Source: Paenibacillus sp. FSL H8-0537
GTDB lineage: Bacteria; Bacillota; Bacilli; Paenibacillales; Paenibacillaceae
DNA length: 64,000 nucleotides
NCBI RefSeq assembly: GCF_038051995.1
Contig: NZ_CP150290.1
Location: 2,532,001-2,596,000, forward strand
Direction: 5' to 3'
Part shown: piece after piece, positions 226-31,299 of the stretch
Layout of the letters: every line of letters starts with the position of its first letter
Numbering within the stretch: position 1 is the first letter of the stretch
The notes under the pieces: model-generated
What the model saw: the letters and a program-made list of their open reading frames with translations, nothing else
What the model was told of the DNA's origin: nothing
Databases searched by the model: none
Program-made: the position numbers and the translations under genes

Positions 226-253
226 CTATTATCCATTATGAGGAGTGATAAGG

Positions 254-2053
254 ATGCTATACCCTATTAATACGTCTTCTCGCAGCGTTATCGATTTGTC
301 CGGCATTTGGAATTTCAAGACAGATCCCGGAATCGGCTTACTGGAAGGATGGCAGATGCAGCCGCTAAGCGACACGATTGCGATGGCTGTTCCGTCTTCC
401 TATAACGATATCGGCGTTAATGCCGAAATACGAAATCATGTAGGATGGGTTTGGTACGAACGGGATATCATTATTCCGAAGACGCTGGCCTCGCAGCGAA
501 TCGTTCTTCGATTCAGCTCGGCCACTCATGAAGCGAAGGTGTATATCAATGGAACGCTGGCCGTAGAGCATACGGGCGGCTTTACACCGTTCGAAGTTGA
601 ACTGAACGGTCACCTGCTGCCGCATAAAAATAGGCTCACAGTAGCCGTCAATAATATTTTGGACGAATCGACACTGCCTGTGGGACATTTCATGGAGCGC
701 GATATTGAAGGAGTGGGCAAAGTCGCTCGAAATAATCCCAATTTCGATTTCTTTAACTATGCGGGGCTGCATCGTCCTGTGAAGATCTACACGACGCCTC
801 ACAGCTATATACAAGATGTACAGATTATATCAAGCGTCAAGAATGACGGCTCCGCGGAAGTGAGCTGCAAAATTGACAGCACCGGAGAGTCCGACGTGCG
901 TATCCATATCCTAGATGAAGCGGGAAGCATCGTTGCCCAAGGAGAAGGGGCGCAAGGAAGCCTCTTGCTGGCGGATGCTAAGCTTTGGGAGCCTATGAAT
1001 GCTTATTTGTACACGTTAAAGGTGGAGCTAGTTCAAGGAGGAGAAATCATCGATGAGTATGATCAACCCTTTGGCATCCGGACTGTGGAAGTAGCGGGCG
1101 GCAAATTCCTAATCAATGGAAAACCGTTCTACTTCAAGGGCTTCGGCAAACACGAGGATTCGCCGATTCATGGACGTGGCATTAACGAGGCGGCCAATGT
1201 CATGGATTTTCGATTAATGAAGTGGATGGGTGCCAATTCATTTCGTACCTCCCATTATCCATATTCGGAAGAAATCATGAGACTGGCTGACAGGGAAGGG
1301 TTCGTCGTTATCGACGAGGTGGCTGCTGTCGGTCTGCATTTGAATTTCATTCCAACGCTGACGGGTGGGAAGAGACGGGACACGTGGAAAGAGCTGAGAA
1401 CCTATGAAGCGCATCGGGAAGCCATTCGCGAGCTGATTGCGAGAGACAAGAACCATGCATGCGTTGTGATGTGGTCCATCGCCAATGAGCCTGCGACTTC
1501 CGAGGAAGGGGCGCGCGAGTACTTCGAGCCGCTGATCCAATATGCGAAGGAATGCGACCCGCAAGGACGTCCGGTCACAGTGGTAACGCTTCAGGAAGGG
1601 AGCCCGGAGCATTGCAAGGTATCGGATCTGGTAGATGTTCTCTGCTTGAATCGGTATTACGGCTGGTACGTTGAAGGCGGGGAATGGGAGATTGCCAAAT
1701 CGAGACTCCGTCAGGAGCTCCAAGGCTGGGGGAAGCGCTGCCCAGAGAAGCCAATCATCATGACGGAATATGGCGCGGATACGATCGCAGGCTTCCATGA
1801 TGTTGATCCCGTCATGTTTACCGAAGAATTTCAGACTGAATTTTTACGGGCCAATCATGAGATGTTCGACGAGTGCAGCAATTTTGTCGGCGAGCATGTA
1901 TGGAACTTTGCCGATTTCAACACCAGTCAAGGCATCTTCCGCGTTCAAGGCAATAAAAAAGGGGTATTTACGCGTGACCGCAAGCCAAAATTAGCGGCGC
2001 ACGAGCTGAAGAAACGGTGGGAAGCCATTCCGGACTATTATTATAAGAGCTAA
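254..2053 (+). CDS. uidA: Beta-glucuronidase, glycoside hydrolase family 2
   Basis: A 599-residue GH2 enzyme with the usual order of sugar-binding jelly-roll, immunoglobulin-like domain and C-terminal TIM barrel. The acid/base is Glu412 in IANEP and the nucleophile is Glu505 in [21 protein letters not shown] near the C-terminus places Asn567 and Lys569 where E. coli GusA has its Asn-Lys pair that recognises the uronate carboxylate, so glucuronides are the expected substrate rather than galactosides. Length and residue numbering nearly coincide with E. coli GusA. There is no signal peptide, so it should act in the cytoplasm on imported glucuronides. ATG 254 is preferred over GTG 245 because GTG 245 lies inside the ribosome site AGGAG (241-245). 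Confidence 0.95.
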
Positions 2054-2134
2054 ATTGCTTATGATAGTGGACCGACGGGTGAATTTAACCCTGACGGGCT
2101 TGTAAATTCATGAATCCTTTTAGTATATAAATTT

Positions 2135-2166
2135 GGGGGCCATCGGGAAATCTGATGGCTCCTTTT
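2135..2166 (+). terminator. Intrinsic terminator after uidA
   Basis: GGGGCCATC and GATGGCTCC form a stem around a short A/T-rich loop, followed directly by TTTTT. It closes the uidA transcript and separates it from the lyase gene. Confidence 0.75.
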
Positions 2167-2206
2167 TAATGCAAGCAGCGCAGCAAACGATACGCCTTAC
2201 GTATAC

Positions 2207-2237
2207 TTGAGGCTATCTGGTAAATGTATGATATATT
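2207..2237 (+). promoter_or_regulatory. Possible promoter of the PL2 lyase gene
   Basis: TTGAGG (2207-2212) lies upstream of the A/T-rich GATATATT stretch (2230-2237), giving a 17-19 base spacer depending on which hexamer is taken. It sits after the uidA terminator and about 100 bases before the lyase start. The match to the sigma-A consensus is weak. Confidence 0.3.
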
Positions 2238-2332
2238 AGCTATGAACCTGCAAAAAAGCATTTTTTGACCATAGAGAGAATCATAGTGGAGAGCGAAGCT
2301 TTTATACCGGAAATCCAAGAGGATGGTGTGTA

Positions 2333-3967
2333 TTGGTGGACAAGAGTACGAGGGATCAGCAGCGATTGAACTACGTCATAACATTTGCAGACAATGTGCT
2401 TAAGGAGGGAAGGGCCCGCAGCGGATGGGAGGCTAGTCCGTTGTTCGCAGATGGAATTGACGTCAGGACGAAGGAGCCTGTCACATGGCGATTTCCCGGA
2501 GGGCGCGAGGCGGTCATGTCCAATTTGGCGAGCCAGCAAAACCTTTTTCGCACCTTTGTTGGGCTGTCGAGGCTTACAGGTGATGAGCAGTATGAAAATG
2601 CTGCTAAATTAGCAATCAAATTTCACTTTGACCATCTTCAAAGCCCTTGCGGCCTGCTGCAATGGGGCGGGCATCGGCTGATTGATTTGAAAACGCTGCA
2701 GGTTGCCGGAGCAGAGGAAAAAAACGGAATGGTGCATGAGCTGAAAAACCATTTTCCGTATTATGAACTCATGTACGAGGTTGATCCTGCAGCGACCATC
2801 CACTACATTAGAGCGTTATGGAATGCACATGTTTTTAATTGGAGCACCCTCGAAATTAGCAGGCACGGCAGCTTCGGCTTGAAAAGCAGCAGGCTGTGGG
2901 CACACGAATTCCGTGATGCGGAGCCTTTTTCGGAGGTTAGCGGGCTGTCTTTTCTGAACGCGGGAAATGATCTAATCTATGCCGCAGGGATGCTGTACAA
3001 GCTGGCGGGCGAGAAAGGAGCCCTGCTCTGGCTGAAGAGGCTTGCCCGCCAATATAACAAGGCGAGAAATAGGGATACAGGCTTAGGTGCCTATCAATTC
3101 AATCAAGCGAGAAAAGTGTATCATACGAATGACGACAGCAATACGCATTCCCGCTTCGGGGATAGGGCTGGGCGGCAATTCGGTCCCGAGTTTGGGGGCG
3201 CAGCTCTGGAAGGCAAAATGCTGCTGGAAGCGCAGGCCTCCACCGTCTACTATGAAAATACATTGATGCAGCTACAGCTTGTGAGCACGATTGGGGAAGT
3301 CGTAAAGGAGCTGGCACAATGGTCAAGGCAAGGGCTCGGCGCTTTTTTGAAATACGGCTACCTTTCTGAAAAAAATGCGTTTAAGCCGATGCTCACCGAC
3401 GGTACGGATTTATCGGGATACGCTCTTAAACGGGACGGCTATTATGGAGATAAAGGCGCCATCATCGGACAGTTTCCCGCTACTAGCAAGTTTTTGCTTT
3501 CTTATGTAAGAACGTTCATACAAACGGGCGACGAAAGCCTATGGGAAGCGGCAAGAAGCATCGCCAAAGGGAATGGACTTGGCGATATAGGCCGCGAGCC
3601 TGGCGTGGATGCTGATCTGGATTTCAAGGCGCCATGCGACGATGCAAGAGCGCTTTATGCGATGCTCGATGTTTATTCGAAATTCGGACATTCGCAATAC
3701 TTGGAGATGGCTAGAAGAATAGGCGATAATATCGTCAGCAGAAAATTTCATTTCGGCTATTTCCTGCCGGCAAGCAACTGCAAGTATGCGAATTTTGATG
3801 CAGCCGAACCGCTTGCCCTTCTTGCTCTGCATGCTGCAATTGAGGCAAAGCAGCACTTTGTTCCAGCATTTATCGACGGGAAAGGATTTTTTCATGCCAA
3901 TATGCAAGCTGTGGATGGCACCATCAAGACATGGAAGTCCCCCCAGCTGTACAAGGAAACGATCTGA
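2333..3967 (+). CDS. Pectate lyase, polysaccharide lyase family 2 (PelW-like)
   Basis: A 544-residue all-helical protein without signal peptide, the length typical of PL2 enzymes, which cleave (oligo)galacturonides by metal-assisted beta-elimination, often inside the cell. From memory, PL2 from Yersinia binds metal through His109, Glu130 and His172 and uses Arg171 as base. Here His114 (WGGH), Glu136 (HEL) and the pair Arg177-His178 (SRHGS) fall at nearly constant offsets, which supports the call. GDRAGRQFGPEFG is another conserved-looking block. The TTG at 2333 has AAGAGGA nine bases upstream. Together with uidA and the binding protein it suggests a uronate-oligosaccharide utilisation locus. 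It could be another (alpha/alpha)-barrel lyase. Confidence 0.7.
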   Translation: MVDKSTRDQQRLNYVITFADNVLKEGRARSGWEASPLFADGIDVRTKEPVTWRFPGGREAVMSNLASQQNLFRTFVGLSRLTGDEQYENAAKLAIKFHFDHLQSPCGLLQWGGHRLIDLKTLQVAGAEEKNGMVHELKNHFPYYELMYEVDPAATIHYIRALWNAHVFNWSTLEISRHGSFGLKSSRLWAHEFRDAEPFSEVSGLSFLNAGNDLIYAAGMLYKLAGEKGALLWLKRLARQYNKARNRDTGLGAYQFNQARKVYHTNDDSNTHSRFGDRAGRQFGPEFGGAALEGKMLLEAQASTVYYENTLMQLQLVSTIGEVVKELAQWSRQGLGAFLKYGYLSEKNAFKPMLTDGTDLSGYALKRDGYYGDKGAIIGQFPATSKFLLSYVRTFIQTGDESLWEAARSIAKGNGLGDIGREPGVDADLDFKAPCDDARALYAMLDVYSKFGHSQYLEMARRIGDNIVSRKFHFGYFLPASNCKYANFDAAEPLALLALHAAIEAKQHFVPAFIDGKGFFHANMQAVDGTIKTWKSPQLYKETI

Positions 3968-3969
3968 GC

Positions 3970-4359
3970 TTATTCCTCGACCAATTCTATAATGCCTACA
4001 TTATTTTTGAACAAAAATACGACCTTCTTATTGCCGATAGCCGGAGCCTCCAAAGCCTCGGCTATGACTAAATAGCCCAGCTTCTTCAATTGATCGGTCT
4101 TCTCCGAGAGATTCGCCGTTTCATAACAGAAATGGTAGGGTGTGCTGCCAACTTTTTTCAACAGATTTTTAACCGGGGAATTGTCATTAAGCGGACAGAC
4201 CAGCTCCACTAAATAGGTACCGCTTTTAATAAATTGGATGACTATATTCCGTTGTTCATCCTGACATTTTTCACCATCCACTTCGTATCCAAGGGCTATA
4301 AACTCCTGTAATGCCTTATCAATATCTTCTACGACGTACCCTACATGATGGACCTTCAT
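3970..4359 (-). CDS. VOC-superfamily (glyoxalase-fold) protein
   Basis: A 129-residue single-domain protein opening with MKVHHVGYVVEDIDKAL and closing with VGIIELVEE, the paired beta-alpha-beta-beta-beta pattern of the vicinal oxygen chelate superfamily. His4/His5 and the terminal ELVEE glutamates are candidate metal ligands, resembling methylmalonyl-CoA epimerase-like members. It has a good AGGAG site and is convergent with the lyase gene, with only two bases between stop codons. It is divergent from the FkbH/NRPS operon, so it may serve that pathway as an epimerase or binding protein, but this is only positional inference. Substrate unknown. Confidence 0.75.
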   Translation of the reverse strand: MKVHHVGYVVEDIDKALQEFIALGYEVDGEKCQDEQRNIVIQFIKSGTYLVELVCPLNDNSPVKNLLKKVGSTPYHFCYETANLSEKTDQLKKLGYLVIAEALEAPAIGNKKVVFLFKNNVGIIELVEE

Positions 4360-4650: not shown

Positions 4651-6822
4651 GTGAATATGACCAGTCGTGAGTTAAATCTCGTATTTTCGGCAACGTTTAC
4701 AGCAGAACCAGTTAGAAGGTCTCTAGTATTTTGGTTGGAGAAGCTAGGAATAAACGCTGCTATTCAATATGAGAATCAGGTGTTCAAACAGCTGCTCGAT
4801 CCTTACAGCGCTATGCGCCAAAACAAAGGGATCAACGTCATACTCATTCGTTTTGATGATTGGTTCAGGGTTGAGGACGGTTTGGAAACGGAGATCAGGA
4901 AAGATGCTTTATTACAAGCCAAAGTCGACCGAAATATCGTTGATCTGCTGAATGCCGTAAAAACATCCGTAGAAGCCACATCAGCCATTCATATCGTGTG
5001 TATTTGCCCTCCTTCGCCACTAATGGAATGGAGCACCGAAACGGCTTGCGATTATAGGGAAATAGAGAACCGATTATATCAAGGACTTCAGGGATTGAAT
5101 GGGATTGTGCCAGTTGCTTCTTCTGACATTTTAGATCTCTACCCCGTAGCGGACTACTATGATTTCCATTCGGATAAAATGGGCCATATTCCGTACAAAC
5201 AGATCTTTTTTGATGCGCTCGGTACGGTCATTGCTAGAAAAATCTATACGGCCACAAGCCTGCCTTATAAAGTAATCGTGCTGGATTGCGACCAGACACT
5301 GTGGAAGGGCATTTGCGGTGAAGACGGAGTGGAAGGGATTGAAGTGGACCCATACCGAAAGCAGCTGCAGACGTTTATGCTGGAGCAGCAGCGCTTAGGG
5401 ATGCTTCTATGTCTTTGCAGCAAAAATAATGAAAGCGATATCATAGAGGCGCTGAAGCGTCCCGATATGCTGATCAAGCCCGAACATATCGCGGCTTCCA
5501 GAATCAACTGGGAGCGCAAATCAGATAATTTGGAAGCATTGGCTAGAGAACTGAATCTGGGCCTCGACAGTTTCATCTTTATTGACGACAACCCTGTCGA
5601 ATGTATGGAGGTTAAAACGCGTTGTCCTCAAGTTCTGACGTTATGCTTGCCTGAAAATGACGAGGACATCCCGCTTTACTTAAGCAACATTTGGGCATTT
5701 GACCGTATAAACACGACTGCTGCAGATGAGAGCCGTACGGAATTGGTTAAGCAAAATACGGAGCGGAATAAGTTCCAGCAGGAAATGCTGTCCTACGAAG
5801 CTTTTATTAGCGGGCTGGAGCTGAGCGTCAGCATTTCTCCGCTAGGTGATGCAGAGCTGGCAAGAGCCGCTCAATTGACTCAGAGGGTGAATCAATTTAA
5901 CTTTACTACGATTAGGCACTCTGAAGCGGAGCTTAAAAAGATAGGCAGCGAAGAGAATGTGAGCTGCTTTGCCGTAGCTGCCAGTGATAGGTTTGGAGAT
6001 TATGGAATAGTAGGTTTGGTTGTATGCCGCGAGCAGGGTTCGAAGCTCATCGTGGACAGCTTCCTTCTTAGCTGCAGAGCTTTAGGCAAAGGAATAGAGT
6101 ATACCATGCTTGCGAAACTTGGCGAATTGGCGGCGGACAAAGGTCTGGGCCAAGTGGACGTTGTTTTTGTTCCAACCTCCAAGAACCAGCCTGCCGCGCA
6201 GTTTTTAGACTTAATCGGAGCACAGAACGTAGCAGCCTCGGCTGAAAATAAAGTGTATGCGTTCACGGCTGCGTTTGCGAAAACAATAGACTTTACGGCC
6301 TACTTGGAACAAGCCGGCCACATACGTGAGGAGGTTCATGCAGCCGCGCAGCAGACAGCGAGCGGTGCTGATCCGGTCATTTTAGATGTGCTGGACGATA
6401 TTGGAAGGCATTTGAATACGTCGAGAAGCATACACGCCAAAGTGGAGGCGGCCTCGCAAGGCAAGACTGGCGAGCGGGCGGAGTATGTAGCTCCAAGGAA
6501 TGAATTTGAGAAAAGAATATTGAACATCTGGGAAGATGTTTTAGTCATTGAGCAAATCGGAGTAATGGATAATTTGTTTGAGGTGGGCGGCGAATCCATT
6601 AAAGCGATTCAGATTTTGTCCAGAATTCGAGAGGAATTTGAAGTGGATTTGCCAATGACGGTACTGTTCGAAGGGTCACTTACAATCGCAGGGCTTGCCG
6701 AGGCTGTCGAAACCAGCTTGCTCAACAGCTTTGATGAAGACTCGATTGCGGAACAATTAGCGGCCTTGGAAAACCTGACGGAAGAAGAAATCGAGCAGCT
6801 GCTTCGGGAAGAGAGCGAGTGA
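4651..6822 (+). CDS. FkbH-like HAD-IIIC glyceryltransferase/phosphatase fused to a carrier domain
   Basis: A 723-residue protein. The N-terminal ~200 residues match the accessory domain of FkbH-like proteins; the HAD core follows with nucleophile motif DCDQT (Asp212, Asp214) and a later IFIDDNPVECMEV acid motif. An acetyltransferase-like segment sits around residues 400-530, and a phosphopantetheinyl carrier lies near the C-terminus with VGGESIKA (Ser649). FkbH enzymes take 1,3-bisphosphoglycerate, remove phosphate and load D-glyceryl onto an acyl carrier; here the carrier is in cis. The tail LTEEEIEQLLREESE is a typical post-carrier linker. GTG 4651 follows AAGGGGAG (4636-4643). It is the first gene of the operon and probably supplies the starter acyl unit for the downstream condensation domain. 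Confidence 0.88.
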   Translation: MNMTSRELNLVFSATFTAEPVRRSLVFWLEKLGINAAIQYENQVFKQLLDPYSAMRQNKGINVILIRFDDWFRVEDGLETEIRKDALLQAKVDRNIVDLLNAVKTSVEATSAIHIVCICPPSPLMEWSTETACDYREIENRLYQGLQGLNGIVPVASSDILDLYPVADYYDFHSDKMGHIPYKQIFFDALGTVIARKIYTATSLPYKVIVLDCDQTLWKGICGEDGVEGIEVDPYRKQLQTFMLEQQRLGMLLCLCSKNNESDIIEALKRPDMLIKPEHIAASRINWERKSDNLEALARELNLGLDSFIFIDDNPVECMEVKTRCPQVLTLCLPENDEDIPLYLSNIWAFDRINTTAADESRTELVKQNTERNKFQQEMLSYEAFISGLELSVSISPLGDAELARAAQLTQRVNQFNFTTIRHSEAELKKIGSEENVSCFAVAASDRFGDYGIVGLVVCREQGSKLIVDSFLLSCRALGKGIEYTMLAKLGELAADKGLGQVDVVFVPTSKNQPAAQFLDLIGAQNVAASAENKVYAFTAAFAKTIDFTAYLEQAGHIREEVHAAAQQTASGADPVILDVLDDIGRHLNTSRSIHAKVEAASQGKTGERAEYVAPRNEFEKRILNIWEDVLVIEQIGVMDNLFEVGGESIKAIQILSRIREEFEVDLPMTVLFEGSLTIAGLAEAVETSLLNSFDEDSIAEQLAALENLTEEEIEQLLREESE

Positions 6823-6830
6823 GGCAGGGT

Positions 6831-8159
6831 ATGAAGCTGTTACTAGCTCAAAATGCATCCTACTATCCTGCACTAGGTGGAGCCAATAAATCTAACCGAA
6901 CGCTTATGGAAGCATTAAGCCGCTTAGGGCACGAGTGCCGCGTCGTTTCTACAGCCTTGGTCAATAGTGCCTCAGAACAAGACCTGCGGGGTGCTGATGA
7001 GATTGAGGTTATATCCTCAAGTTCCGAAGTTTCCGTCTTCCATCTTAAAGGTGTTGCTGTTCATGCTGTGAAGGTGCGAGCAGCCATGGACAGCGCAAGG
7101 CTGAAAAATTATTTAATCAGGCAAATAAAGGACTTTGCTCCCGACAGAATTCTAATTTCTACGGAGGATGTGGGGCATGTACTGCTGGAGGCGGCTGTAA
7201 ACAACGCAGCTTCCAAAGTCGTCTACCTTGCCAGAACAACCCTCTATCTGCCCTTTGGGCCGGATTGTTTTATAGAGGCGCCTGATAAGACGGAGCTGCT
7301 GCGCAAAGCGGCAGCCATTGTCGTCGTTGGCGATTATCTCAAGGACTATATGTGGCAGTGGGCCAAGCTCAAAGCAGAGGTGCTGCCCATTTCTTTATTT
7401 GGCGACGGTCCTTTTCCGGACTATGGAAATTTCGATAAAGGCTATGTGGCCATGGTGAATCCATGCGCTTACAAGGGGATATCGATTTTTCTAGAGCTGG
7501 CGCGCTCCTTTCCTGAGCTGTCATTTGCCGCCATTCCGACATGGGGTACAACCTCCGATGATATGAAAGCGCTGAGGGAGCTCAAAAACGTTCGTATTTT
7601 TGATCCAGTGGACGATATGAACAAGCTTTTCTGCCAAACCCGTGTTATGCTCGTTCCTTCCTTGTGGGCTGAGGCCAAATCAAGGACGATCGTTGAGGCT
7701 ATGCTGCGAGGCATCCCTGTTCTTGCAAGTGACGTTGGGGGAAATCCAGAGGCCAAGCTGGGAGTAGAGTATGTGCTTCCGGTAAATCCGATTAAGGGCT
7801 ACAAACAGGCTGTTGATGAACGCAGCCTGCCCGTATCGGACATACCGGAGCAGCCTATGCAGCCGTGGCAGGAGGCACTCGGACGTTTATTGAGTGAAAG
7901 GGAGCACTATGAGGATGTATCAAGACGTTCAAGGGAAGCGGCACTGGATTATGTAGAAAATAGGGGAGGAAGCAAGCGGGTTGAAGCATATTTGCTGAAT
8001 TTGCAGGCTGCAGCGGAAAATATGCAGCAAGAAGTCCTAGTCCCTGCTGCTAAAGAGAGTACCGTTGCCCAAATGACCGATAAGCTTACTCCTGCCCAGA
8101 AGGCGCTGCTTGCCTTAAGGTTAAATAAAAAAAATCAAAGCCGGGGTAATGGCCAATGA
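6831..8159 (+). CDS. GT4-type glycosyltransferase with NRPS-like C-terminal helix
   Basis: A 442-residue GT-B enzyme. The N-terminus reads MKLLLAQNASYYPALGG with the sugar-acceptor glycine loop, and the C-terminal half has EAKSRTIVEAMLRGIPVLASD, close to the E-x7-E nucleotide-sugar site of family 4 retaining transferases (quoted in parts: EAKSRTIVEAM then LRGIPVLASD). No membrane segments, so cytoplasmic. The last 25 residues carry LTPAQKALLALRLNKK, almost the same as the first residues of the NRPS encoded next, which suggests docking to the assembly line. ATG 6831 is preferred; a GTG at 6819 overlaps the previous stop. It overlaps the NRPS gene by four bases, implying translational coupling. 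Donor and acceptor are unknown. Confidence 0.85.
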   Translation: MKLLLAQNASYYPALGGANKSNRTLMEALSRLGHECRVVSTALVNSASEQDLRGADEIEVISSSSEVSVFHLKGVAVHAVKVRAAMDSARLKNYLIRQIKDFAPDRILISTEDVGHVLLEAAVNNAASKVVYLARTTLYLPFGPDCFIEAPDKTELLRKAAAIVVVGDYLKDYMWQWAKLKAEVLPISLFGDGPFPDYGNFDKGYVAMVNPCAYKGISIFLELARSFPELSFAAIPTWGTTSDDMKALRELKNVRIFDPVDDMNKLFCQTRVMLVPSLWAEAKSRTIVEAMLRGIPVLASDVGGNPEAKLGVEYVLPVNPIKGYKQAVDERSLPVSDIPEQPMQPWQEALGRLLSEREHYEDVSRRSREAALDYVENRGGSKRVEAYLLNLQAAAENMQQEVLVPAAKESTVAQMTDKLTPAQKALLALRLNKKNQSRGNGQ

Positions 8160-11100
8160 GTAAAGAATTGGATAACAACGCGGTTGCAGAAAAATGGAGC
8201 GGCCTTTCGGACAAACAGAAGGCATTGCTGGCTCTGAGGATGAAAAAACAGGGGGCAGAGCAGCCGGCGCAAAGCTTGAAGATCACCCGGCTGGAAAGAA
8301 CCGGCGAAGACCGCTTTACGGCCTCCTATTCGCAGAAGCGCTTCTGGTTTCTTGATCAATGGCATACGAACAAGGCTGCCTATAATACCCATCTTGTTTC
8401 CAAACTGGTGGGCAGGTTGGACTTGAATGCGCTTAAGCAAACCTTCGATGCGATTGTGAACAGGCATGAGATATTGCAGATGGTTTATCGTAATCGCGAG
8501 CATGAGGTTGAGTGCTGCCGTCATTCCAATCCGGTTGTTACGATAGGCGAGAAATCGGTAAAGGCGTTCACCAGAAAGCAGCTGGAAGAGAAAATCGAGG
8601 ACTTTGTTCACGAAGAGGTACACAATCCGTTTGATTTGGCTAACGATCTGCCAATAAGGGTGACGCTGCTGTCTGTTTCAAAAAAAGAGCATTATCTGAT
8701 TATCGTCGTCCACCACATCGTGTCGGATATGTGGTCCTTGCGTGTGATGAACAAGGAAATTGAATGTTTTTACAATGCCTTTGCCAGAGGCCAGCAGCCG
8801 GAGCTTCCGGAGCTTCCCGTGCAGTATATGGATTATGCGGTATGGCAAAGGAATCTATTAGAGGGAAAAGTTACAGAGAGACAGACCCAGTACTGGAAGG
8901 AACAATTGGCGGGAGCTCCTCCGTGTCTGCCATTGATGACGGATTTTCCCCGTCCAGATGTACAAACCTATAATGGGAAGGTTCATAAATTTATTATTCC
9001 AGAAGGCATGGCAGGCAAAATTCAGACGCTTGCAAGTGAAGAAGCGATAACCCCATTTGTTTTTTCATTAACGGCTTTTGCTATTTTACTTAACCGTTAT
9101 ACCCAAGCGGATGATATCGTCATAGGTTCTCCGGTTGCGGGGCGTACCCATAAAGAGGTTGAAGACCTGATGGGCTTGTTCATCAATACGCTGGCGATCA
9201 GAGTTCGTTTGGAAGGCAATCCCCGGATCAGGGAGCTGCTGCAAACGGTCAAAAAAACCGTTATGGGCGCCGTGGCAAACCAGGAGCTTCCTTTTGAGAA
9301 GCTTGTGGAGGAATTGCAGATTGAGCGTGATTTGAGCTATTCTCCTGTTTTTCAGGCGATGTTTAATTTTCAAAGCATAGAGAAAACAGCCCTGCAGCTT
9401 GCCGAGCTGGAAGTCAGTCCTTTTTTGCGCAGCAACAATACGACAAAGTTTGATTTGAATCTGGCCGTCAAGTACATTGAAGGCGAAATGACCTGCTTCT
9501 TGACCTATAACACCGATCTATTCCTTCCCGAAACGATTCAGCGCATGGCAGGCCATTACATGGAGATCATTTCCTCTATGGCCGAAAGCTTTAACTTAAA
9601 GGCTCATGAAATTGAGACGCTTACCCCACTAGAAAAACAAACACTGCTCTCAGAATGGAGCTTTTCCGAATACATTAATCATCCTGATGTTCCGTATGTT
9701 CACAAGCTTTTCGAGGAGCAGGTGCAGAAAAGTCCAGCTGCTATTGCTGCTGCTTGCCAGGGCAGGTCTTACACATACGAGGAGCTTAATCAAAGAGCCA
9801 ATAAGCTTGCGCACTATTTATCCGCTAAAGGAGTTGGCCCTGAAAAACGTGTAGCCCTATTTGCCGAGCGTTCGCTTGAAACGGTAGTGGGCATTCTTGG
9901 AATTTTGAAAGCAGGCGGAGCCTACGTTCCAATAGATCCCCTGTTTCCTGTCGAACGTATCAGGTACATACTGGAGGATGCCTCCATTGATATTGTAGTT
10001 GCCGAGGCGCATTTAGCGGTTTCCTTAGGCGATACTGCAACGGCGGAATGGGTGTATCTCGACGCTGACTGGCCTGCCATTGCAGAGCAGAGCAGTGACA
10101 ATATGGCGGTGCCGCTGCAGCCTTCCAATCTGATTTACATCATTTATACATCAGGCTCTACAGGCAAGCCGAAGGGTGTTGCGGTAGAGCATGGGAATTT
10201 TCTGAATTACTATTTCGGCGTGATGCAGAGGCTGGATGTCGAGCCAGGCCTTAAATACGCGATTGCTTCCACCTTTGCCGCTGACCTCGCCACTATTAAT
10301 GTGTGGGCAGCATTAAACACGGGCGGACAGCTTCATATTTTGACCTATGACCAATCCGTCGACTCTCAGCAATATGCCAAATATTTCAGGGAGCACGGAA
10401 TCGATGTCATTAAAATGGTTCCAAGCCATTTCAAGGCGCTGCGGGAACGCGCGAACCTGCGCGATATTATTCCGAATAAACGGCTTATCCTTGCTGGCGA
10501 GCCCTCCTATTGGGACATGATTGATGACATCAGGGCGGCTAAGCCTGAGACGGAGATCCAAATTCATTATGGACCGACTGAAACGACGGTGTCCATGCTG
10601 ACGTATACCGTAACCGAAAAAAGGCCCGCCCAGCATACGTCGGTGCTGCCGCTGGGGCGTCCGCTGCCTAATGTTTCTATCTATGTGCTGGATGATAAAA
10701 TGCAGCTTGCGCCTATAGGAGTTCCCGGGGAGCTATTCATTGGCGGGCCGGGAGTTGCCAGAGCGTATTTAGGCAGACCGGAATTAAACGTAGAAAAGTT
10801 TGTTCCAAATCCGTTCGACGAGGAAAATGGCGGACGGCTTTATCGAACCGGAGATATAGTGCGTTATTTGGAAAACGGCATTATTGAGTTTTTGAGCAGA
10901 GTCGACGAACAGGTGAAAATCCGGGGTTTTCGAATCGAGCTAGGTGAAATCCAATCATCGCTGCTCGAATATCCCGGCATCAAGGATGCTTTTGTGACCG
11001 TTCATGAAGACGCTGGCGGCGAAAAGAAGATCGCTGCCTACTATGTGCCAGGCGGCTCCCAGCCGGTTAACCTATCCGCACTGCGGAACAGTCTGAAGGA

Positions 11101-13729
11101 GAAGCTTCCGGGCTACATGGTTCCTGCGGTATTTATGGAGCTGGATAAAATGCCCTTGAACGCAAACGGCAAGGTGGAACGCAGCGCTCTGCCTGCTCCG
11201 AATGCCGTAGAAGCAGCCTCTGAAAGCGACTATGAAGCGCCGCGGGACGAATTGGAAGCGAGGATGGCTGCTGTCTGGTCCGAGGTTTTGAACATCGAGA
11301 GAATAGGGATAAACGATGATTTTTTTAGTCTGGGAGGAGACTCCTTTAAGGCGGTCCAAGTTGTGCGGGGAATTGATCATGCGCTGAGCATTATCGACCT
11401 TTTCAAATATCCGACGATTGGTGAGCTGTCGGCTATCGTTTCGCAGGGCAGTACGGACAGCGGGGACGTCCTTCACCGACTTTCGAGGGGGGGAAATGCC
11501 GCTGAGGAGATTGCCATCGTGTGTGTTCCCTTTGCTGGCGGGAGCGCGATTTCCTATCAGCCGCTGGCCGATGCGCTGGCGGATCATTATGCCCTTTATG
11601 CGGTTCAAGTTCCCGGACATGATTTCAGCAATAAGGATGAAGTCCTTGAGCCTTTGGAAGAAGTAGCAAGGCGCTGTGTACAGGAAATAAAGGACAAGGT
11701 TGCCGCTCCATCCATCGTTGTTTATGGGCATTGTCTTGGAGGCGCTCTGGCGATTGAAATAGCGAGGCTCCTGGAGCAAGAGAATATGAACCTGGCTGGC
11801 GTCGTTATGGGAGGGAATTTTCCTGTTTCCCAGCTGCCGGGCAAGCTGTTCAAGCTATGGAATAAGCTATTGCCACGGGACCGCCGCATTTCGAACCGTG
11901 CCTATATGGATATGCTCCGCTCTTTGGGCGGCTTCAGCGAGACGCTGTCAGGAGAGGAGCGGGATTTTATTATCCGCAGCCTTAGGCATGACCGCCGTGA
12001 AAGCGAGCGTTATTACTCTGATCGGTATGCCGATGCCAATCATGCAAAATTAAAGGCGCCGCTGCTTTGCATAGTCGGCGAACGGGACAGAACGACCGAG
12101 TTTTACGAGGAGCAGTATAAGGATTGGGAGTTTTTCAGCAGCCATGTGGATTTAGACCTGATCCCGAATGCGGGACATTATTTCTTCAAGCACCAGTCCC
12201 ATGACGTAGCTGATTGTATTGAGAATGGCCTTGAAGCGTGGCAGCAGCAGAAGGCGAACGAGGAGAAACAGGGGAACCAGGAAAGTCAGAAGCAAAATAA
12301 CCGGGAGACGGCAGCATCGCCGGAAGTGCTCCCGAATTTGCGAACGCTTTTCATCTTCGTTTTTGGGCAGTTTATTTCCATGATGGGCTCCAGCTTAACG
12401 GGTTTTGCGATGGGCCTATGGGTTTACAGCCATTCAGGCGCCATTATGGATTTTGCCGCAACGCTGGTGTTCCACCGCCTGCCGGGTATCTTAATGCTTC
12501 CTTTTGCAGGTGTTCTGGCGGACAAAAAGGATCGCAGGCATATTCTGATCTGGAGTAATGTATGTTCTGCGGTTGTAACGATTATGATCGCCTTGTTCTT
12601 CTACAGCAACTCGCTAGAGACGTGGCATATTTATGTCGCGGTGGCGGCCTTATCCATTGCAAATGCCTTTCAGCGTCCCGCCTATTTGGCGGCAGTTGCC
12701 CAAATTGCGCCCAAGCGCTATCTCGGACAAGCCAATGGAATTGTGCAGCTGGCTACCTCTTCGAGCGAAGTGCTTGCGCCGCTGCTGGGGGGCGTTCTGG
12801 TGATGACACTTGAGCTGCCGGGCATTCTTCTCATCGACTTCCTATCCTTCGTTTTTGCTATATCGACTTTGCTCTTTATAAGGTTTCCAAATTCCTTATT
12901 CCGCAAAATTGAAGAGCCATTTTGGACTCAAATGGCCGGAGGCTGGAACTTCATAAGGAAGCGCAAAAGCTTCGTAGCCTTGATTTTGTTTTTTATGATT
13001 TCCAATTTGATGCTGGGGATGGCCAACGTCCTCATTACTCCGCTCGTTCTAACCTTTGGATCTACCGTTGTACTCGGAATGGTGACCTCAGCTATTGGCA
13101 TAGGGGGACTCGCAGGCGGGGTGGCTATGGGGCTGTGGGGAGGTACCCGCAGAAGAGCGGAGGGCATGATTGGTTTTAGCTTGCTTATCGGTCTTTCCTA
13201 CATCGTAATGGGGCTTACGCCAATAACTTGGCTGGTCATGGCGGGAGTATTTGTTTACGGCGTCTCGCTGTCGATGACAAACGCCCACTGGCAGACATTG
13301 ATCCAATCCAAGGTGCGGGCCGAACTGCTGGCAAGGGTATTTTCGATCAATCAGCTATTCGCTTTGCCTACCATTCCGCTGGGCTACTATATTGGCGGAC
13401 TGCTGTCGGACAAAATATTCAAACCGCTGTTTGTCGATCATCCAGAGCTTGTTAAGAGTCTGGGCTGGATTGTAGGCACGGGGCCGACACGGGGAATAGG
13501 CCTGCTGTTTATTTTAATCGGCTTATTTATGGCGGCCTGGAGCTTCCTTGGGCTAAAGTATAATCCACTCCGCTATATGGATGATATTTTACCTGATGCC
13601 ATTCCGGGGCCGCTGTTTATAAGGGATAAGGATCGCATTCAGCAGGAGGAAGACCGGGAACTGGAGCGGATAAACAAGCAGCTGGCGAGTAAGAACGTTT
13701 TTAGCAGGGGGAAAAGCTATGATATTTAA
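8156..13729 (+). CDS. Single-module NRPS with thioesterase fused to an MFS transporter (C-A-PCP-TE-MFS)
   Basis: An 1857-residue multidomain protein. Residues 17-31 form a docking-like helix. The condensation domain (about 45-480) has HHIVSD (His186-His187, Asp191). The adenylation domain (about 500-1020) has YTSGSTGKPKG, HYGPTETT, YRTGD and NGKVER. The carrier (about 1040-1105) has LGGDSFKA (Ser1063). The thioesterase (about 1115-1360) has GHCLGG, so the nucleophile is Cys1193 rather than Ser, with GERD and NAGHYF supplying Asp and His. After a Gln/Asn/Glu linker, residues 1390-1815 form about twelve membrane segments with LADKKDRRH, the MFS loop signature. Synthesis, release and export are thus in one polypeptide. 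It probably condenses the FkbH-loaded glyceryl unit with one amino acid. Confidence 0.92.
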   Translation: MSKELDNNAVAEKWSGLSDKQKALLALRMKKQGAEQPAQSLKITRLERTGEDRFTASYSQKRFWFLDQWHTNKAAYNTHLVSKLVGRLDLNALKQTFDAIVNRHEILQMVYRNREHEVECCRHSNPVVTIGEKSVKAFTRKQLEEKIEDFVHEEVHNPFDLANDLPIRVTLLSVSKKEHYLIIVVHHIVSDMWSLRVMNKEIECFYNAFARGQQPELPELPVQYMDYAVWQRNLLEGKVTERQTQYWKEQLAGAPPCLPLMTDFPRPDVQTYNGKVHKFIIPEGMAGKIQTLASEEAITPFVFSLTAFAILLNRYTQADDIVIGSPVAGRTHKEVEDLMGLFINTLAIRVRLEGNPRIRELLQTVKKTVMGAVANQELPFEKLVEELQIERDLSYSPVFQAMFNFQSIEKTALQLAELEVSPFLRSNNTTKFDLNLAVKYIEGEMTCFLTYNTDLFLPETIQRMAGHYMEIISSMAESFNLKAHEIETLTPLEKQTLLSEWSFSEYINHPDVPYVHKLFEEQVQKSPAAIAAACQGRSYTYEELNQRANKLAHYLSAKGVGPEKRVALFAERSLETVVGILGILKAGGAYVPIDPLFPVERIRYILEDASIDIVVAEAHLAVSLGDTATAEWVYLDADWPAIAEQSSDNMAVPLQPSNLIYIIYTSGSTGKPKGVAVEHGNFLNYYFGVMQRLDVEPGLKYAIASTFAADLATINVWAALNTGGQLHILTYDQSVDSQQYAKYFREHGIDVIKMVPSHFKALRERANLRDIIPNKRLILAGEPSYWDMIDDIRAAKPETEIQIHYGPTETTVSMLTYTVTEKRPAQHTSVLPLGRPLPNVSIYVLDDKMQLAPIGVPGELFIGGPGVARAYLGRPELNVEKFVPNPFDEENGGRLYRTGDIVRYLENGIIEFLSRVDEQVKIRGFRIELGEIQSSLLEYPGIKDAFVTVHEDAGGEKKIAAYYVPGGSQPVNLSALRNSLKEKLPGYMVPAVFMELDKMPLNANGKVERSALPAPNAVEAASESDYEAPRDELEARMAAVWSEVLNIERIGINDDFFSLGGDSFKAVQVVRGIDHALSIIDLFKYPTIGELSAIVSQGSTDSGDVLHRLSRGGNAAEEIAIVCVPFAGGSAISYQPLADALADHYALYAVQVPGHDFSNKDEVLEPLEEVARRCVQEIKDKVAAPSIVVYGHCLGGALAIEIARLLEQENMNLAGVVMGGNFPVSQLPGKLFKLWNKLLPRDRRISNRAYMDMLRSLGGFSETLSGEERDFIIRSLRHDRRESERYYSDRYADANHAKLKAPLLCIVGERDRTTEFYEEQYKDWEFFSSHVDLDLIPNAGHYFFKHQSHDVADCIENGLEAWQQQKANEEKQGNQESQKQNNRETAASPEVLPNLRTLFIFVFGQFISMMGSSLTGFAMGLWVYSHSGAIMDFAATLVFHRLPGILMLPFAGVLADKKDRRHILIWSNVCSAVVTIMIALFFYSNSLETWHIYVAVAALSIANAFQRPAYLAAVAQIAPKRYLGQANGIVQLATSSSEVLAPLLGGVLVMTLELPGILLIDFLSFVFAISTLLFIRFPNSLFRKIEEPFWTQMAGGWNFIRKRKSFVALILFFMISNLMLGMANVLITPLVLTFGSTVVLGMVTSAIGIGGLAGGVAMGLWGGTRRRAEGMIGFSLLIGLSYIVMGLTPITWLVMAGVFVYGVSLSMTNAHWQTLIQSKVRAELLARVFSINQLFALPTIPLGYYIGGLLSDKIFKPLFVDHPELVKSLGWIVGTGPTRGIGLLFILIGLFMAAWSFLGLKYNPLRYMDDILPDAIPGPLFIRDKDRIQQEEDRELERINKQLASKNVFSRGKSYDI

Positions 13730-14585
13730 TGTAATGACGGTACTAAACAGTGATTATTTTGACTTTGGAAAGCTGTTTGTCAATTCCTTTTATGACAATG
13801 TCGATTTAAGCCGTATCCATAAGCTTTACGTTTATGATACCGGACTTTCCGAGGACGATAAAAAATATTTGTCCGTTTTTCCGCAGATGGAAATCGTATC
13901 AACCGAGCTGAATACGAAGCATGTGCTGCTTCACGATGAGGACTGGCGCAAAAATGTATACTCCAAAACCGCTTTTTTGCTGCAGGTCATTGAAAAGGAT
14001 TCACTGCCTACCGTCATGATCGATTCAGATTGCCTGTTCCTTTCAGATTTTACCCGCTTGATACCGGAAAATGCTGATTTTGTCGCCTGTCGCCGTGAAG
14101 AGCAGGAAGCTTTTTGTGAATATATCGCGTCCTTCTTTGTCATTAATTCCATCGAGAAAGCCCCTTCTTTTATACGGGAATGGCGAGAGGAAATGTATTA
14201 TGGGACGGAAAATCACAAGGAAAGCCCGGCATTATCACGCTTAATCAATAAGGGCGGCTATCAGGTCTATGCGATCAAGGAGGATCTGGTTTCCTACACC
14301 GGTACTGAATTGACGGCGGATATAACCATCGCACATATGAAGTCGACCAGAGGATTGCGAACGGTAGAGCAGCGAGTTAACCAGCCGCATTTGAAAGCGT
14401 ATAAGGAAAAGTATTTGACGGATATTCCTATAGCTGCGGTTGGAAAAGCACTTTCAGCGATGTTTCTGGAAACCGCCTCGGAGGCTGCACTGGAGCAAAG
14501 CTCCGGTAAAGATCGTCCCTCCGCTTTGGACAACCTTTCGCCAGAGAAAAGGGCACTGCTTCTAAAAAGGCTGAAAAAGGGCTGA
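13719..14585 (+). CDS. GT-A-fold glycosyltransferase with NRPS-like C-terminal helix
   Basis: A 288-residue soluble protein with a nucleotide-sugar transferase N-terminus (NVMTVLNSDYFDFGKLFVNS) and a DxD motif in MIDSDCLF (Asp102, Asp104), which binds metal and the nucleotide diphosphate in GT-A enzymes such as family 8. The last 16 residues are LSPEKRALLLKRLKKG, a third copy of the helix found at the GT4 C-terminus and the NRPS N-terminus. ATG 13719 overlaps the NRPS stop by 11 bases and follows AGGGGGAAA. With GT4 it could place two sugars, or a disaccharide, on the product while it is carrier-bound. Donor and acceptor cannot be read from sequence. Confidence 0.75.
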   Translation: MIFNVMTVLNSDYFDFGKLFVNSFYDNVDLSRIHKLYVYDTGLSEDDKKYLSVFPQMEIVSTELNTKHVLLHDEDWRKNVYSKTAFLLQVIEKDSLPTVMIDSDCLFLSDFTRLIPENADFVACRREEQEAFCEYIASFFVINSIEKAPSFIREWREEMYYGTENHKESPALSRLINKGGYQVYAIKEDLVSYTGTELTADITIAHMKSTRGLRTVEQRVNQPHLKAYKEKYLTDIPIAAVGKALSAMFLETASEAALEQSSGKDRPSALDNLSPEKRALLLKRLKKG

Positions 14586-14636
14586 TTGCCCCTATGTATG
14601 ACATACGTTGCCTTCACAAAAAGAGGGGTGTACGAA

Positions 14637-15821
14637 TTGGACCATTTGGAACAACGGTTAAAGCTCAAATATCCTCAATTGCAGCATACGGTTAAAACGA
14701 TTAAATCGCCGCTTCGTTTTTGTCCCTTCGGGGCCCATGTGGATCATCAAGCTGGAATGGTAGCCGGAATGACGCTGGATATTTCTGTGGATATGGTTTA
14801 TGTTCAGAACGAAGAGCCGTATATAAGGGTTCAAAGCTTGGATTTCCCCGACGAGGAGTATTTTCATCTGGAACAGGTTCCGGCGATGGTGCCGGGATTT
14901 TGGGGCAATTATTTAAGAGGGGCCGTTATGGCCCTAAGAAAGAACCATATATTAAAGCACGGTATTTATGCATTAGTTAGAGGCAAGCATCCTATTGGCG
15001 GCTTGAGCTCTTCGGCAGCGGTAACGACCGCCTATCTTCTGGCTCTTTGCGATGTGAACGGGATTAAACTCCCGGAGCTTGAGCTAATCAACTATAGCCA
15101 CTGGGTAGAGAACCATTTTATCGGACTGAATAATGGCATACTGGATCAGTCAATCAATATTTTAAGCCGTGAAGGCTATTTGACCGTGATGGATACCAAA
15201 ACCAAAAGCTATGAGCTGATCGAAAGACCGCAAGCGATGCCGGAATTTGAAGTCGTGATTGTTTATTCTGGTGTGAGCAAGGCATTGATTGGGACCGATT
15301 ATAACAACCGTGTAGATGAATGCAAAGTGGCCGCATGGCTTTTGCACGAGATGGCTGGCTTGCCTATGAAAAACCTGAAAGGCACCCAGCTCCGAGATAT
15401 CGAGTATGAGGTTTACCAAGAGCATAAGTCAGGCTTGCAAGGCAGATTTCAGAAGAGGGCGGAGCATTTTTTCACTGAGAATGAACGGGTGAAGCAAGGC
15501 GCCGAGGCGTGGAAGCAGGGGGACCTGCAAAAATTCGGCAGCCTGATGCTTGAATCGGGGGAAAGCTCCATTCATAATTATGAATGTGGCTGTCCAGAGC
15601 TGATCAGCATTTTCCATATCCTAAAGCATACACAAGGCGTATATGGAGCCAGATTCAGCGGAGCGGGCTACAGAGGCTGCTGTATTGGTCTGGTGGACCC
15701 GGCGTATAAGGAGCAAATCAAAGCCGCCATTGATGCACAATATCCAAAGCAGCATCCGGCGTATAAGGATTTGTATCAGGTGTGCTTTAGCAAAACCGAT
15801 GATGGCGCGCGAATCATATAA
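14637..15821 (+). CDS. GHMP sugar kinase, galactokinase/galacturonokinase-like
   Basis: About 394 residues with the three GHMP motifs: SPLRFCPFGAHVDHQAG near the N-terminus, PIGGLSSSAAVTTAYLLAL as the ATP loop, and GARFSGAGYRGCC near the C-terminus. Galactokinases have GEHTDY in motif 1; GAHVDHQ is instead what I remember from plant galacturonokinase, so a uronic acid such as galacturonate is a reasonable substrate guess, giving sugar-1-phosphate. TTG 14637 is chosen because AGAGGGG (14622-14628) lies eight bases upstream; TTG 14586, ATG 14598 and GTG 14628 are in-frame alternatives. It is followed after 27 bases by a nucleotidyltransferase, the next step toward an NDP-sugar. Confidence 0.8.
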   Translation: MDHLEQRLKLKYPQLQHTVKTIKSPLRFCPFGAHVDHQAGMVAGMTLDISVDMVYVQNEEPYIRVQSLDFPDEEYFHLEQVPAMVPGFWGNYLRGAVMALRKNHILKHGIYALVRGKHPIGGLSSSAAVTTAYLLALCDVNGIKLPELELINYSHWVENHFIGLNNGILDQSINILSREGYLTVMDTKTKSYELIERPQAMPEFEVVIVYSGVSKALIGTDYNNRVDECKVAAWLLHEMAGLPMKNLKGTQLRDIEYEVYQEHKSGLQGRFQKRAEHFFTENERVKQGAEAWKQGDLQKFGSLMLESGESSIHNYECGCPELISIFHILKHTQGVYGARFSGAGYRGCCIGLVDPAYKEQIKAAIDAQYPKQHPAYKDLYQVCFSKTDDGARII

Positions 15822-15848
15822 CTGGGGTTAGAAGCGAGGGAAATACGA

Positions 15849-16589
15849 ATGAAGGCAATTATTTTAGCAGCGGGTTACGCAACTCGCCTCTATCCTTTGA
15901 CAAAGGACTTTCCAAAGCCTCTTCTGGAGGTTGGAGGGAAAGCGATCATGGACCATATTATGGAGAAAATCGAAAGGGTTAGCTTGATTGACGAGACTTT
16001 TATTGTGACCAATGCCCGTTTTTATAGCCACTTTGTAGACTGGGCGAGCCAATCAGATTATTTCAAGCCGATTAAAGTCATTGATGATCGGACGACAAGC
16101 AACGAGAACCGCTTAGGGGCTATTGCCGACCTGCAGTTTGTCTTGGAACAGGAAAAGCTCGGCGATGAGCTTCTGGTCATGGCTGGCGACAATCTTTTTG
16201 ATTTTGAACTAGCCGAAATGGTTCGTTTCTATCAAAGGGCGAGTACGGATACGATTGCAGCCCACGAGATAGAGGACATCGATTTTCTTAGGCGCACAGG
16301 TGTTATCCAAATGGATGCTAAGGGTAGAGTTATAGATTTTGAGGAAAAGCCGGCACAGCCTAGATCCAAGTTGGCCTGTCCTCCCTTTTATATTTACCAG
16401 CAGTCAACACTCCCTTTAATCAAGCAATATTTGGCAGAGGGCAATAACCCTGACGCACCGGGCAACTTTGTTCCTTGGCTGATTCGGCATAAAGAGGTTC
16501 ATGCCTACAAATTTGAAGGGAAGCGCTTTGATATTGGGACATTGGAGAGCTATCACGAGGCGAGGGAGCTGTTCGCAAAGCAGAGTTAA
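15849..16589 (+). CDS. Sugar-1-phosphate nucleotidyltransferase
   Basis: A 246-residue protein starting MKAIILAAGYATRLYPLT and continuing FPKPLLEVGGKAIMDH, the nucleotide-binding loop and phosphate site of the NTP_transferase family that includes glucose-1-phosphate thymidylyl- and cytidylyltransferases. MAGDNLFDFEL carries the metal-binding Asp and FDIGTLESYHEA is the usual C-terminal motif. Base specificity cannot be decided by eye. GAGGGA precedes the start. As last gene of the operon it would convert the sugar-1-phosphate made by the GHMP kinase into the donor for the two glycosyltransferases. A terminator follows about 270 bases downstream. Confidence 0.88.
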   Translation: MKAIILAAGYATRLYPLTKDFPKPLLEVGGKAIMDHIMEKIERVSLIDETFIVTNARFYSHFVDWASQSDYFKPIKVIDDRTTSNENRLGAIADLQFVLEQEKLGDELLVMAGDNLFDFELAEMVRFYQRASTDTIAAHEIEDIDFLRRTGVIQMDAKGRVIDFEEKPAQPRSKLACPPFYIYQQSTLPLIKQYLAEGNNPDAPGNFVPWLIRHKEVHAYKFEGKRFDIGTLESYHEARELFAKQS

Positions 16590-26229: not shown

Positions 26230-26352
26230 TACGTAAATTCATCTATGCCCTTTTGCATCCCAGTACTTGTCGATGCCTTGCCACTCAGAGTATAGTAATA
26301 ACTTATAATGCATGTGCAGGCTCCTAAGTGCTGCGCAAGAAAGGAGCCTGCC

Positions 26353-29692: not shown

Positions 29693-29716
29693 TCGCAGGA
29701 TGGAGTAGTTTTTTTC
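29683..29716 (+). terminator. Terminator after the two-component system
   Basis: ACTACTC (29683-29689) pairs with GAGTAGT (29703-29709) and is followed by a run of T to 29716. The stem begins inside the last codons of the response regulator. It isolates the regulators from the structural genes. Confidence 0.75.
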
Positions 29717-31295: not shown

Positions 31296-31299
31296 AGCG

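Follow-up and report, generated by a model that had tools for sequence, protein, structure and literature searches.

FkbH-family proteins dephosphorylate 1,3-bisphosphoglycerate and load the glyceryl unit onto a carrier, and sugars are usually taken to be attached to nonribosomal peptides after release. For cyanobacterial FkbH relatives, the available parts of PMC13122637 and PMC10143770 propose that the glyceryl unit is methylated and sulfated by methyltransferase (MT) and sulfotransferase (ST) domains of the same module. The accessible text of PMC9113145 places betaHD docking domains also on thioesterases (TEs), MTs, reductases and halogenases, and for the TE of the obafluorin synthetase ObiF1 the residues His1145, Cys1146, Gly1173, Asp1254 and His1284 are discussed in the portion of PMC6668435 at hand. 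Here we analyse six genes in a stretch of 64,000 nucleotides, hereafter "the window", from Paenibacillus sp. FSL H8-0537 (RefSeq assembly GCF_038051995.1, contig NZ_CP150290.1, positions 2,532,001 to 2,596,000 of the forward strand). This apparently uncharacterised gene set probably builds a small sugar-bearing molecule on an assembly line of two proteins, i.e. an FkbH protein with an acyl carrier protein (ACP) domain and a nonribosomal peptide synthetase (NRPS). A conserved terminal helix is common to the proposed partner proteins, as in NRPS docking elements, and docked glycosyltransferases may attach sugars before the molecule leaves the assembly line.

The gene set and its parts

A sequence-only reading of the stretch had described six same-strand, mostly overlapping genes, and six plus-strand open reading frames (ORFs) are indeed present, at 4651-6822, 6819-8159, 8156-13729, 13719-14585, 14586-15821 and 15849-16589. 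The first three junctions are overlaps of 4, 4 and 11 bp, genes four and five abut, and the final gap is 27 bp. Domain scans (Pfam, NCBIfam) bore out the FkbH-ACP loader, the module of condensation (C), adenylation (A) and peptidyl carrier protein (PCP) domains, the TE and the fused major facilitator superfamily (MFS) transporter of that reading; its two glycosyltransferases, sugar kinase and nucleotidyltransferase were recovered as well. At E 0.001 the fourth protein had no match among the Pfam and NCBIfam models; "glycosyltransferase" is nevertheless a fair name for it because PF03407 is present in several of its relatives and structure prediction gives it a GT-A fold. As an outline the reading stood in its parts and missed the docking helices, the Cys-type, ObiF1-like TE and a wider operon family. 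The features are as follows.

4651..6822, plus strand: FkbH-ACP, starter loader, 723 aa, GTG start (TIGR01686 and PF00550)
5266..6222, plus strand: FkbH domain (TIGR01686, residues 206-524)
6514..6708, plus strand: acyl carrier domain of FkbH-ACP (PF00550, residues 622-686)
6730..6819, plus strand: acidic C-terminal tail of FkbH-ACP, proposed docking donor (net charge -11 over 30 residues)
6819..8159, plus strand: GT4-type glycosyltransferase, 446 aa (PF13692, PF00534)
8085..8132, plus strand: C-terminal docking-type helix of GT4, LTPAQKALLALRLNKK (profile rank 1 of 37,225 positions, 30.1 bits)
8156..13729, plus strand: NRPS C-A-PCP-TE-MFS, 1857 aa (Condensation, AMP-binding, PP-binding, Thioesterase and MFS_1 in one protein)
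8204..8251, plus strand: N-terminal docking-type helix of the NRPS, LSDKQKALLALRMKKQ (profile rank 3, 21.0 bits; model helices 7-15 and 19-34)
8315..9649, plus strand: condensation domain, motif HHIVSD (PF00668)
9710..11173, plus strand: adenylation domain, code read from alignment columns as DLIKIAHVSK (PF00501, PF13193)
11264..11434, plus strand: peptidyl carrier domain (PF00550)
11516..12214, plus strand: thioesterase domain, ObiF1-like (PF00975/PF12697; 6n8e at E 5.8e-39)
11732..11734, plus strand: codon of the TE nucleophile Cys1193, GHCLGG (motif and alignment)
12359..13360, plus strand: fused MFS transporter (PF07690, residues 1402-1735; TIGR00900)
13719..14585, plus strand: GT-A glycosyltransferase, 288 aa (PF03407 relatives; GT-A fold in predicted structure)
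14535..14582, plus strand: C-terminal docking-type helix of GT-A, LSPEKRALLLKRLKKG (profile rank 2, 25.9 bits; model helix 275-287)
14586..15821, plus strand: GHMP sugar kinase, galacturonokinase-like (PF00288, PF08544)
15849..16589, plus strand: sugar-1-phosphate nucleotidyltransferase (PF00483; best PDB matches are RmlA-type chains)

The FkbH domain scored 288.2 bits against TIGR01686, above the curated cut-off of 146.65, and the motif DCDQT is present in the ORF. The GHMP kinase ORF opens at TTG and has 411 aa; a later start is likely because the three best homologues have 394-398 aa. Promoter-like sites (20, versus 16.4 in shuffles) and terminator-like sites (9 versus 13.6) did not exceed the shuffled sequences. 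Sequence searches of the PDB gave nothing usable for the GT-A protein (E<=1) or the GT4 protein (E<=0.001), nor for the NRPS head, which had two unrelated matches at E<=10.

A docking-type helix on transferases and NRPS

The tail of GT4, the head of the NRPS and the tail of GT-A carry one type of helix, which is short and amphipathic. Similar helices, judged by eye, start 11 of the 13 proteins of more than 1000 aa that open with a C domain among the best 120 FkbH relatives; the remaining two begin inside a domain. A helix profile of 16 columns was built from eight distinct C-domain heads of other organisms and contained neither window nor transferase sequences. Among 37,225 six-frame positions the three window sites ranked at the top (30.1, 25.9 and 21.0 bits), and the fourth position had 8.2 bits.

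The same profile identified 12 of 17 tails at p<=0.007, missing P0010, P0016, P0017 and P0020, with P0018 at p 0.031. After these misses a 13-column profile was used for the GT-A relatives. It gave p<=0.01 for 19 of the 21 relatives with a tail, five of which are >=89% identical to the query, and for none of the 15 tail-less or truncated ones; for comparison, three of 120 kinase tails and two of 120 FkbH tails passed (best 120 relatives each). Relatives with identities as low as about 57% thus keep the helix (19/21), although the linker before it varies. The predicted models of GT-A and NRPS have a short helical hairpin beside a low-confidence linker, at residues 269-287 of GT-A (predicted local distance difference test, pLDDT, about 70) and residues 7-34 of the NRPS (block means of 66 and 68 for residues 11-30). 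At the nucleotide level, the GT4 tail and the NRPS head lie 119 bp apart and are 73% identical over 33 nt. A loose acidic motif was found in 76 of the 120 best FkbH relatives listed.

A related operon family in Paenibacillaceae

The GT4 protein had matches in 10 of 197 family genomes searched (E<=1e-40), and the TE domain in 15 of 235 (E<=1e-20). Twelve further loci, in 10 genomes, have TEs that are 46-54% identical to that of the window, and one of them lies in the source genome itself (C1:3.496-3.506 Mb). The order starter, transferase, C-A-PCP-TE-MFS was found in 12/12, the genes overlapping or lying no more than 37 bp apart, and the large overlaps in G213 and G048 are an effect of mechanical start choice. 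The starters are A-PCP proteins in the two domain-scanned cases, the other ten being assigned by BLAST and size; one NRPS was domain-scanned in full and the rest align over the whole protein. Among the transferases (six domain-scanned, the others assigned by BLAST), six are of GT4 type, 37-41% identical to the window GT4, and six are EryCIII/GT28-like. These two sets have no mutual match at E<=0.001, and the GT-A protein aligned with the transferases over only 17-63 residues (best E 0.009). The helix-bearing transferases span the GT-A, GT4 and EryCIII/GT28-like families.

The three genes in order, the Cys-type TE and the code D-L-x-K-I/M-A-H-V-S-K, by which we define the family, were found in the window and in all 12 other loci. 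The conserved wider core is starter, glycosyltransferase and C-A-PCP-TE-MFS, and the studied cluster is one variant of it. The fetched stretches of the 12 other units contained no relatives of the FkbH-ACP, GT-A, kinase or nucleotidyltransferase, and no tailoring gene is common to the neighbourhoods of all 12 operons.

For these operons an 18-head profile was composed of the eight earlier heads and 10 NRPS heads of the related operons, with no transferase included. It identified seven of the 12 transferase tails at p<=0.006, i.e. all six GT4 and one EryCIII-like, compared with a single passing tail (p<=0.01) among 116 from other ORFs. By profile, the helix is absent from three GT4 relatives outside such operons. 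The starter tails are acidic in 12/12 (net -5 to -9 over 24 residues), and the A-PCP starter codes of other units read DASTV/IAAVCK, DVWQFCLVFK and DILQMGMVWK.

The locus L089 encodes an AMP-ligase, ACP, C, FkbH (by BLAST), ACP protein, then a free GT4, whose tail has p 0.0005, and next a protein of 3028 aa that consists of a GT4 joined to three C, two A and two PCP domains. Between this GT4 and the first C domain stands ISRDKKALLALKLKEK (helix p 0.0025). Of all the evidence, this fused protein speaks most strongly for a transferase of this kind working on the assembly line. L089:1973-17978 is possibly a larger glyco-glycerolipopeptide system.

Several neighbours of the operons were noted. The second starter/glycosyltransferase/C-A-PCP-TE-MFS operon of the source genome (L084:8749-17615) has a beta-lactamase-family (PF00144) gene beside it, as do its two close orthologues. 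An Sfp-type phosphopantetheinyl transferase gene lies near four of the 12 operons (L087:2902-3663, L090, L091 and L095; assigned by scan in one case and by similarity in three). Five genomes (G081, G052, G104, G084 and G152; L082, L083) contain more distant TE relatives (27-29% identity) in frames of 1688-1716 aa, which may represent a sister group of synthetases.

Thioesterase and adenylation domain

The best solved relative of the window TE is ObiF1 (6n8e; E 5.8e-39, 137 bits), the next having 64 bits. All five ObiF1 residues named above are matched in the alignment, their placement using a numbering offset of 20 derived by hand, and the five active-site columns read H-C-G-D-H in 13/13 NRPSs (window and 12 others). 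A Cys nucleophile with a displaced catalytic Asp, the ObiF1-type feature, is thus present in all of them. According to the parts of PMC11298585 consulted, this combination is common to ObiF and SulM, AB3403 also has Cys but with the Asp at the usual place, and the displaced Asp position occurs in some type II proof-reading TEs.

The adenylation code, taken from alignment columns, is DLIKIAHVSK in the window and D-L-T/P/S/I-K-I/M-A-H-V-S-K in 13/13. It resembles DLTKVGHIGK, which we take to be the aspartate code, and the predicted substrate is an acidic, aspartate-like amino acid.

Sugar-activation genes and upstream neighbours

The kinase scored 198.9 bits, under the NCBIfam galactokinase cut-offs of 226.65 to 509. 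It has a galactokinase fold lacking the Glu of GEHTDY, the motif reading GAHVDH in the alignment to 1pie and 2cz9; this Glu presumably contacts the sugar, and its loss would suit a uronate. Proteins named galactokinase, galactokinase/galacturonokinase and galacturonokinase are among the relatives listed, one of them from Natranaerovirga pectinivora, and kinase matches in the genus, the carriers' own copies aside, are 25-30% identical. The kinase thus resembles galacturonokinases, and from its sequence a uronic acid is more likely than a plain hexose as the donor sugar. Of the hexose or hexuronate foreseen by the sequence-only reading, the hexuronate side is favoured.

Directly upstream of the cluster, positions 245-3967 contain genes for a beta-glucuronidase-like (GH2) protein and a PelW-like pectate lyase. 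The PelW-like gene adjoins the cluster in all four carriers, and the GH2 gene was not found in the G035 stretch. PelW orthologues (80-100%) occur in the same four of 51 genomes, and five others have relatives of 35-39%; because the four carriers form one clade, this sharing cannot show cluster membership. A small glyoxalase/VOC-family gene at 3970-4359 on the minus strand faces the cluster at the same place in the four carriers and could possibly serve self-protection.

Distribution and co-occurrence

The GT-A gene is present in four of 51 genus genomes and three of 245 sampled family genomes, source genome included. Among 299 class and 398 phylum genomes only the source genome had it. It was found in none of 391 genomes in the class of a Clostridia metagenome-assembled genome, in none of the three genomes behind L017, L018 and L020, and there was no plasmid match. 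GT-A relatives of 35-42% identity lie at four loci on IMG/VR viral contigs (L022-L025), and short environmental GT-A-like proteins, similar to the viral ones, have no docking-type tail.

The synteny search suggested by the sequence-only reading recovered all six genes in order in three other genomes (L013, L014 and L015; the L014 place is represented a second time by L016). The carriers form one tight clade, with a flanking oxidoreductase 96-97% identical and no other full-length match above 75%, and sharing of the cluster within the genus is therefore weak evidence. Distant co-occurrence was read from the longest contigs of equal bp in three protein searches, with the best 120 relatives each for FkbH and kinase, and denotes a shared contig rather than adjacency. 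GT-A and FkbH relatives share four contigs (14,103; 15,410; 84,634 and 117,817 bp) versus 0.06 expected from shifted controls, and GT-A and kinase relatives share three (3,199; 117,817 and 6,249,607 bp) versus 0.18. The 6,249,607-bp contig is that of a near-identical strain; the 117,817-bp contig is common to GT-A, FkbH and kinase relatives. FkbH and kinase alone share one contig versus 0.31 expected, which is not significant. By this measure, the co-conservation expected by the sequence-only reading held for three of the parts, GT-A, FkbH and the kinase.

A proposed pathway and its alternatives

We infer a route that runs from glyceryl loading, via a docking partner, on-carrier glycosylation, a uronic acid donor, aspartate and ring closure, to export. 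FkbH would load the glyceryl unit onto its own ACP, whose acidic C-terminal helix would be recognised by the basic helix on the NRPS head and on both transferase tails. The GHMP kinase and the nucleotidyltransferase would activate the sugar, most likely galacturonate, and the docked transferases would put one or two sugars on the carrier-bound glyceryl unit. The C domain would then join the glycosylated unit to one acidic, aspartate-like amino acid, the TE would take the product onto its Cys and release it, possibly by ring closure as in ObiF1, and the fused MFS domain would export it. We give this compact NRPS pathway with docked glycosyltransferases, taken as a whole, an even chance. More tentative is the wider proposal of minimal assembly lines in which transferases of at least three families acquired the helix of the next synthetase, sugars are added before the peptide bond, and an ObiF1-like Cys TE releases a sugar-bearing N-acyl amino acid, small, acidic and containing a strained ring, for export by the fused transporter.

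Several results weigh against docking as a general explanation. The proposed role of the acidic FkbH-ACP tail as binding partner is deduced from charge and gene order, and charge pairing is weak in the six GT4-type units, where the transferase helix has a net charge of 0 to +2. With the 16-column profile, two held-out heads whose spacing is shifted reached p 0.066 and 0.017, P0018 (p 0.027) and P0020 (p 0.73) have no significant helix by the 13-column profile, and helix profile A2 found no docking protein among 12 PDB matches at E<=10. On the related operons, the eight-head profile reached p<=0.01 in only five of 12 transferase tails and seven of 12 NRPS heads; in five of the six GT4-type units the NRPS head was not significant. 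The better recovery by the 18-head profile was obtained with NRPS heads of these very operons included, leaves five EryCIII-like tails at p 0.014, 0.0375, 0.0535, 0.055 and 0.068 (the last three close orthologues), and comes with one false positive among the 12 starter tails (p 0.002). Finally, the starter code DILQMGMVWK of one related operon, presumably Gly-like, looks to offer no hydroxyl for O-glycosylation, so that the glycosylation site may differ between units.

The transferases could instead be ordinary post-assembly enzymes acting on the released product, with a tail helix for dimerisation or for contact with the membrane or MFS domain. Post-release glycosylation is what is usually proposed, e.g. 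for suomilide in the available part of PMC13122637, and a short amphipathic helix with a deduced partner would fit such uses. However, the same helix heads the NRPS and C-domain-first proteins of other organisms, the L089 GT4 is joined to a C domain directly through it, the three GT4 relatives outside the related operons are devoid of it, and the transferase gene stands between starter and NRPS in 12/12; we regard this explanation as rather unlikely. The helix might also be a passive relic of a split GT-helix-C fusion, now devoid of a docking role. The similarity of the nearby GT4 tail and NRPS head and the existence of the L089 fusion are compatible with this, but GT-A, of another family and encoded downstream of the NRPS, has the helix too and its relatives have kept it, which makes a relic quite improbable. 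Fission of a fusion as the whole explanation was rejected because different glycosyltransferase families carry the helix.

With regard to release, the TE of the proposed pathway may merely hydrolyse the thioester, and the product would then be linear, a glycosylated glyceryl-aspartate-like acid. In favour of this, the code is Asp-like, aspartate lacks a beta-hydroxyl, and among the six genes the domain scan found no hydroxylase or transaldolase for the beta-hydroxy-alpha-amino acid that is the last residue in ObiF1-type beta-lactone synthetases. A beta-lactone product is therefore not assigned, and for want of such a gene the cluster is not counted among these synthetases. The Asp position shared with type II proof-reading TEs (PMC11298585, in the parts available) points in the same direction. 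On the other side stand the Cys, Gly and displaced Asp as in ObiF1 in 13/13 and the lead of ObiF1 over the next structure (137 versus 64 bits), and hydrolysis alone is given slightly less than an even chance. The kinase, nucleotidyltransferase and upstream pectate-lyase gene could belong to pectin or surface-sugar metabolism and be chance neighbours of the NRPS genes. The PelW-like and beta-glucuronidase genes lie directly upstream, the common order in one tight clade proves little, and the related operons have no kinase/nucleotidyltransferase pair. In contrast, GT-A and kinase relatives share the 117,817- and 3,199-bp contigs in distant genomes, besides the near-identical strain, an FkbH relative is on the former contig as well, and the genes abut; chance neighbourhood thus has little probability.

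A portable helix that directs glycosyltransferases to a carrier would, if true, open a new way to engineer glycosylated peptides, and its small size suits deletion or grafting tests. The operons are small, with three core genes; apart from the window type, they were found in 10 of the 235 family genomes sampled. Their acidic residue and a TE of the beta-lactone/beta-lactam kind point to a family of small molecules that is unexplored and may be reactive.

Other observations

Elsewhere in the window, positions 26308-40944 encode a two-component regulator, a solute-binding protein and GH125 and GH38 alpha-mannosidases; a 1110-aa ORF at 34838-38170 has no Pfam match at E<=1e-10. Positions 42863-50798 contain two flavin amine-oxidase/desaturase-like genes and a family 2 glycosyltransferase. 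Among 31 condensation-domain matches in the source genome are very large NRPS frames of 13,826 and 7,032 aa (C1:3.21-3.25 Mb and 5.65-5.69 Mb).

Comparison with known systems

The sequence-only reading knew of no characterised cluster with this combination, and the searches of the open-access literature likewise gave no account of the cluster. Titles and abstract openings of the papers listed contained nothing on point for FkbH-NRPS-glycosyltransferase sets in Paenibacillus or for docked or carrier-bound glycosylation.

Obafluorin ObiF1 (C-A-PCP-TE-MLP) is alike in its single C-A-PCP-TE module, with a Cys nucleophile, Gly at the usual Asp site, an Asp that follows the later strand, and His; it is also the best PDB match of the window TE. 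It ends in MLP whereas the window NRPS ends in MFS, and its starter is an aryl acid instead of FkbH-ACP; the window also differs in its Asp-like code, the lack of a transaldolase gene and the presence of glycosyltransferases.

The first NRPSs of dysinosin, suomilide and varlaxin (DysB/AerB) share the FkbH-loaded glycerate and one amino acid, as far as described in the available parts of PMC6520454, PMC10143770 and PMC13122637; L017-L019 are related to this type by sequence, their domains being read from ORFs rather than by domain search. This type differs in having MT/ST in cis, an epimerization (E) domain, further modules and no fused MFS, and its glycosylation is proposed to occur at other parts of the molecule or once it has been released. 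The Pfam scan found no MT, ST or E domains in the window FkbH protein. The FAAL-ACP-C-FkbH-T starters of vioprolide and corramycin likewise bring FkbH glycerate into an NRPS, and L089 has a similar order plus GT4 genes; in contrast, they have acylated glycerate and a long assembly line, and the accessible part of PMC10099666 reports no docked transferase.

For the sugar genes, salvage by galacturonokinase and nucleotidyltransferase is the closest case, with kinase relatives of that name and GAHVDH for GEHTDY, but the window pair sits in an NRPS operon. The helices, finally, are like the docking elements of NRPSs and polyketide synthases (COM, PAX, SLiM-betaHD, helix bundles), i.e. short terminal elements that pair a carrier with the next enzyme. 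The review PMC9113145 nowhere contains the string "glycosyl", whereas two of the window helices stand at glycosyltransferase C-termini.

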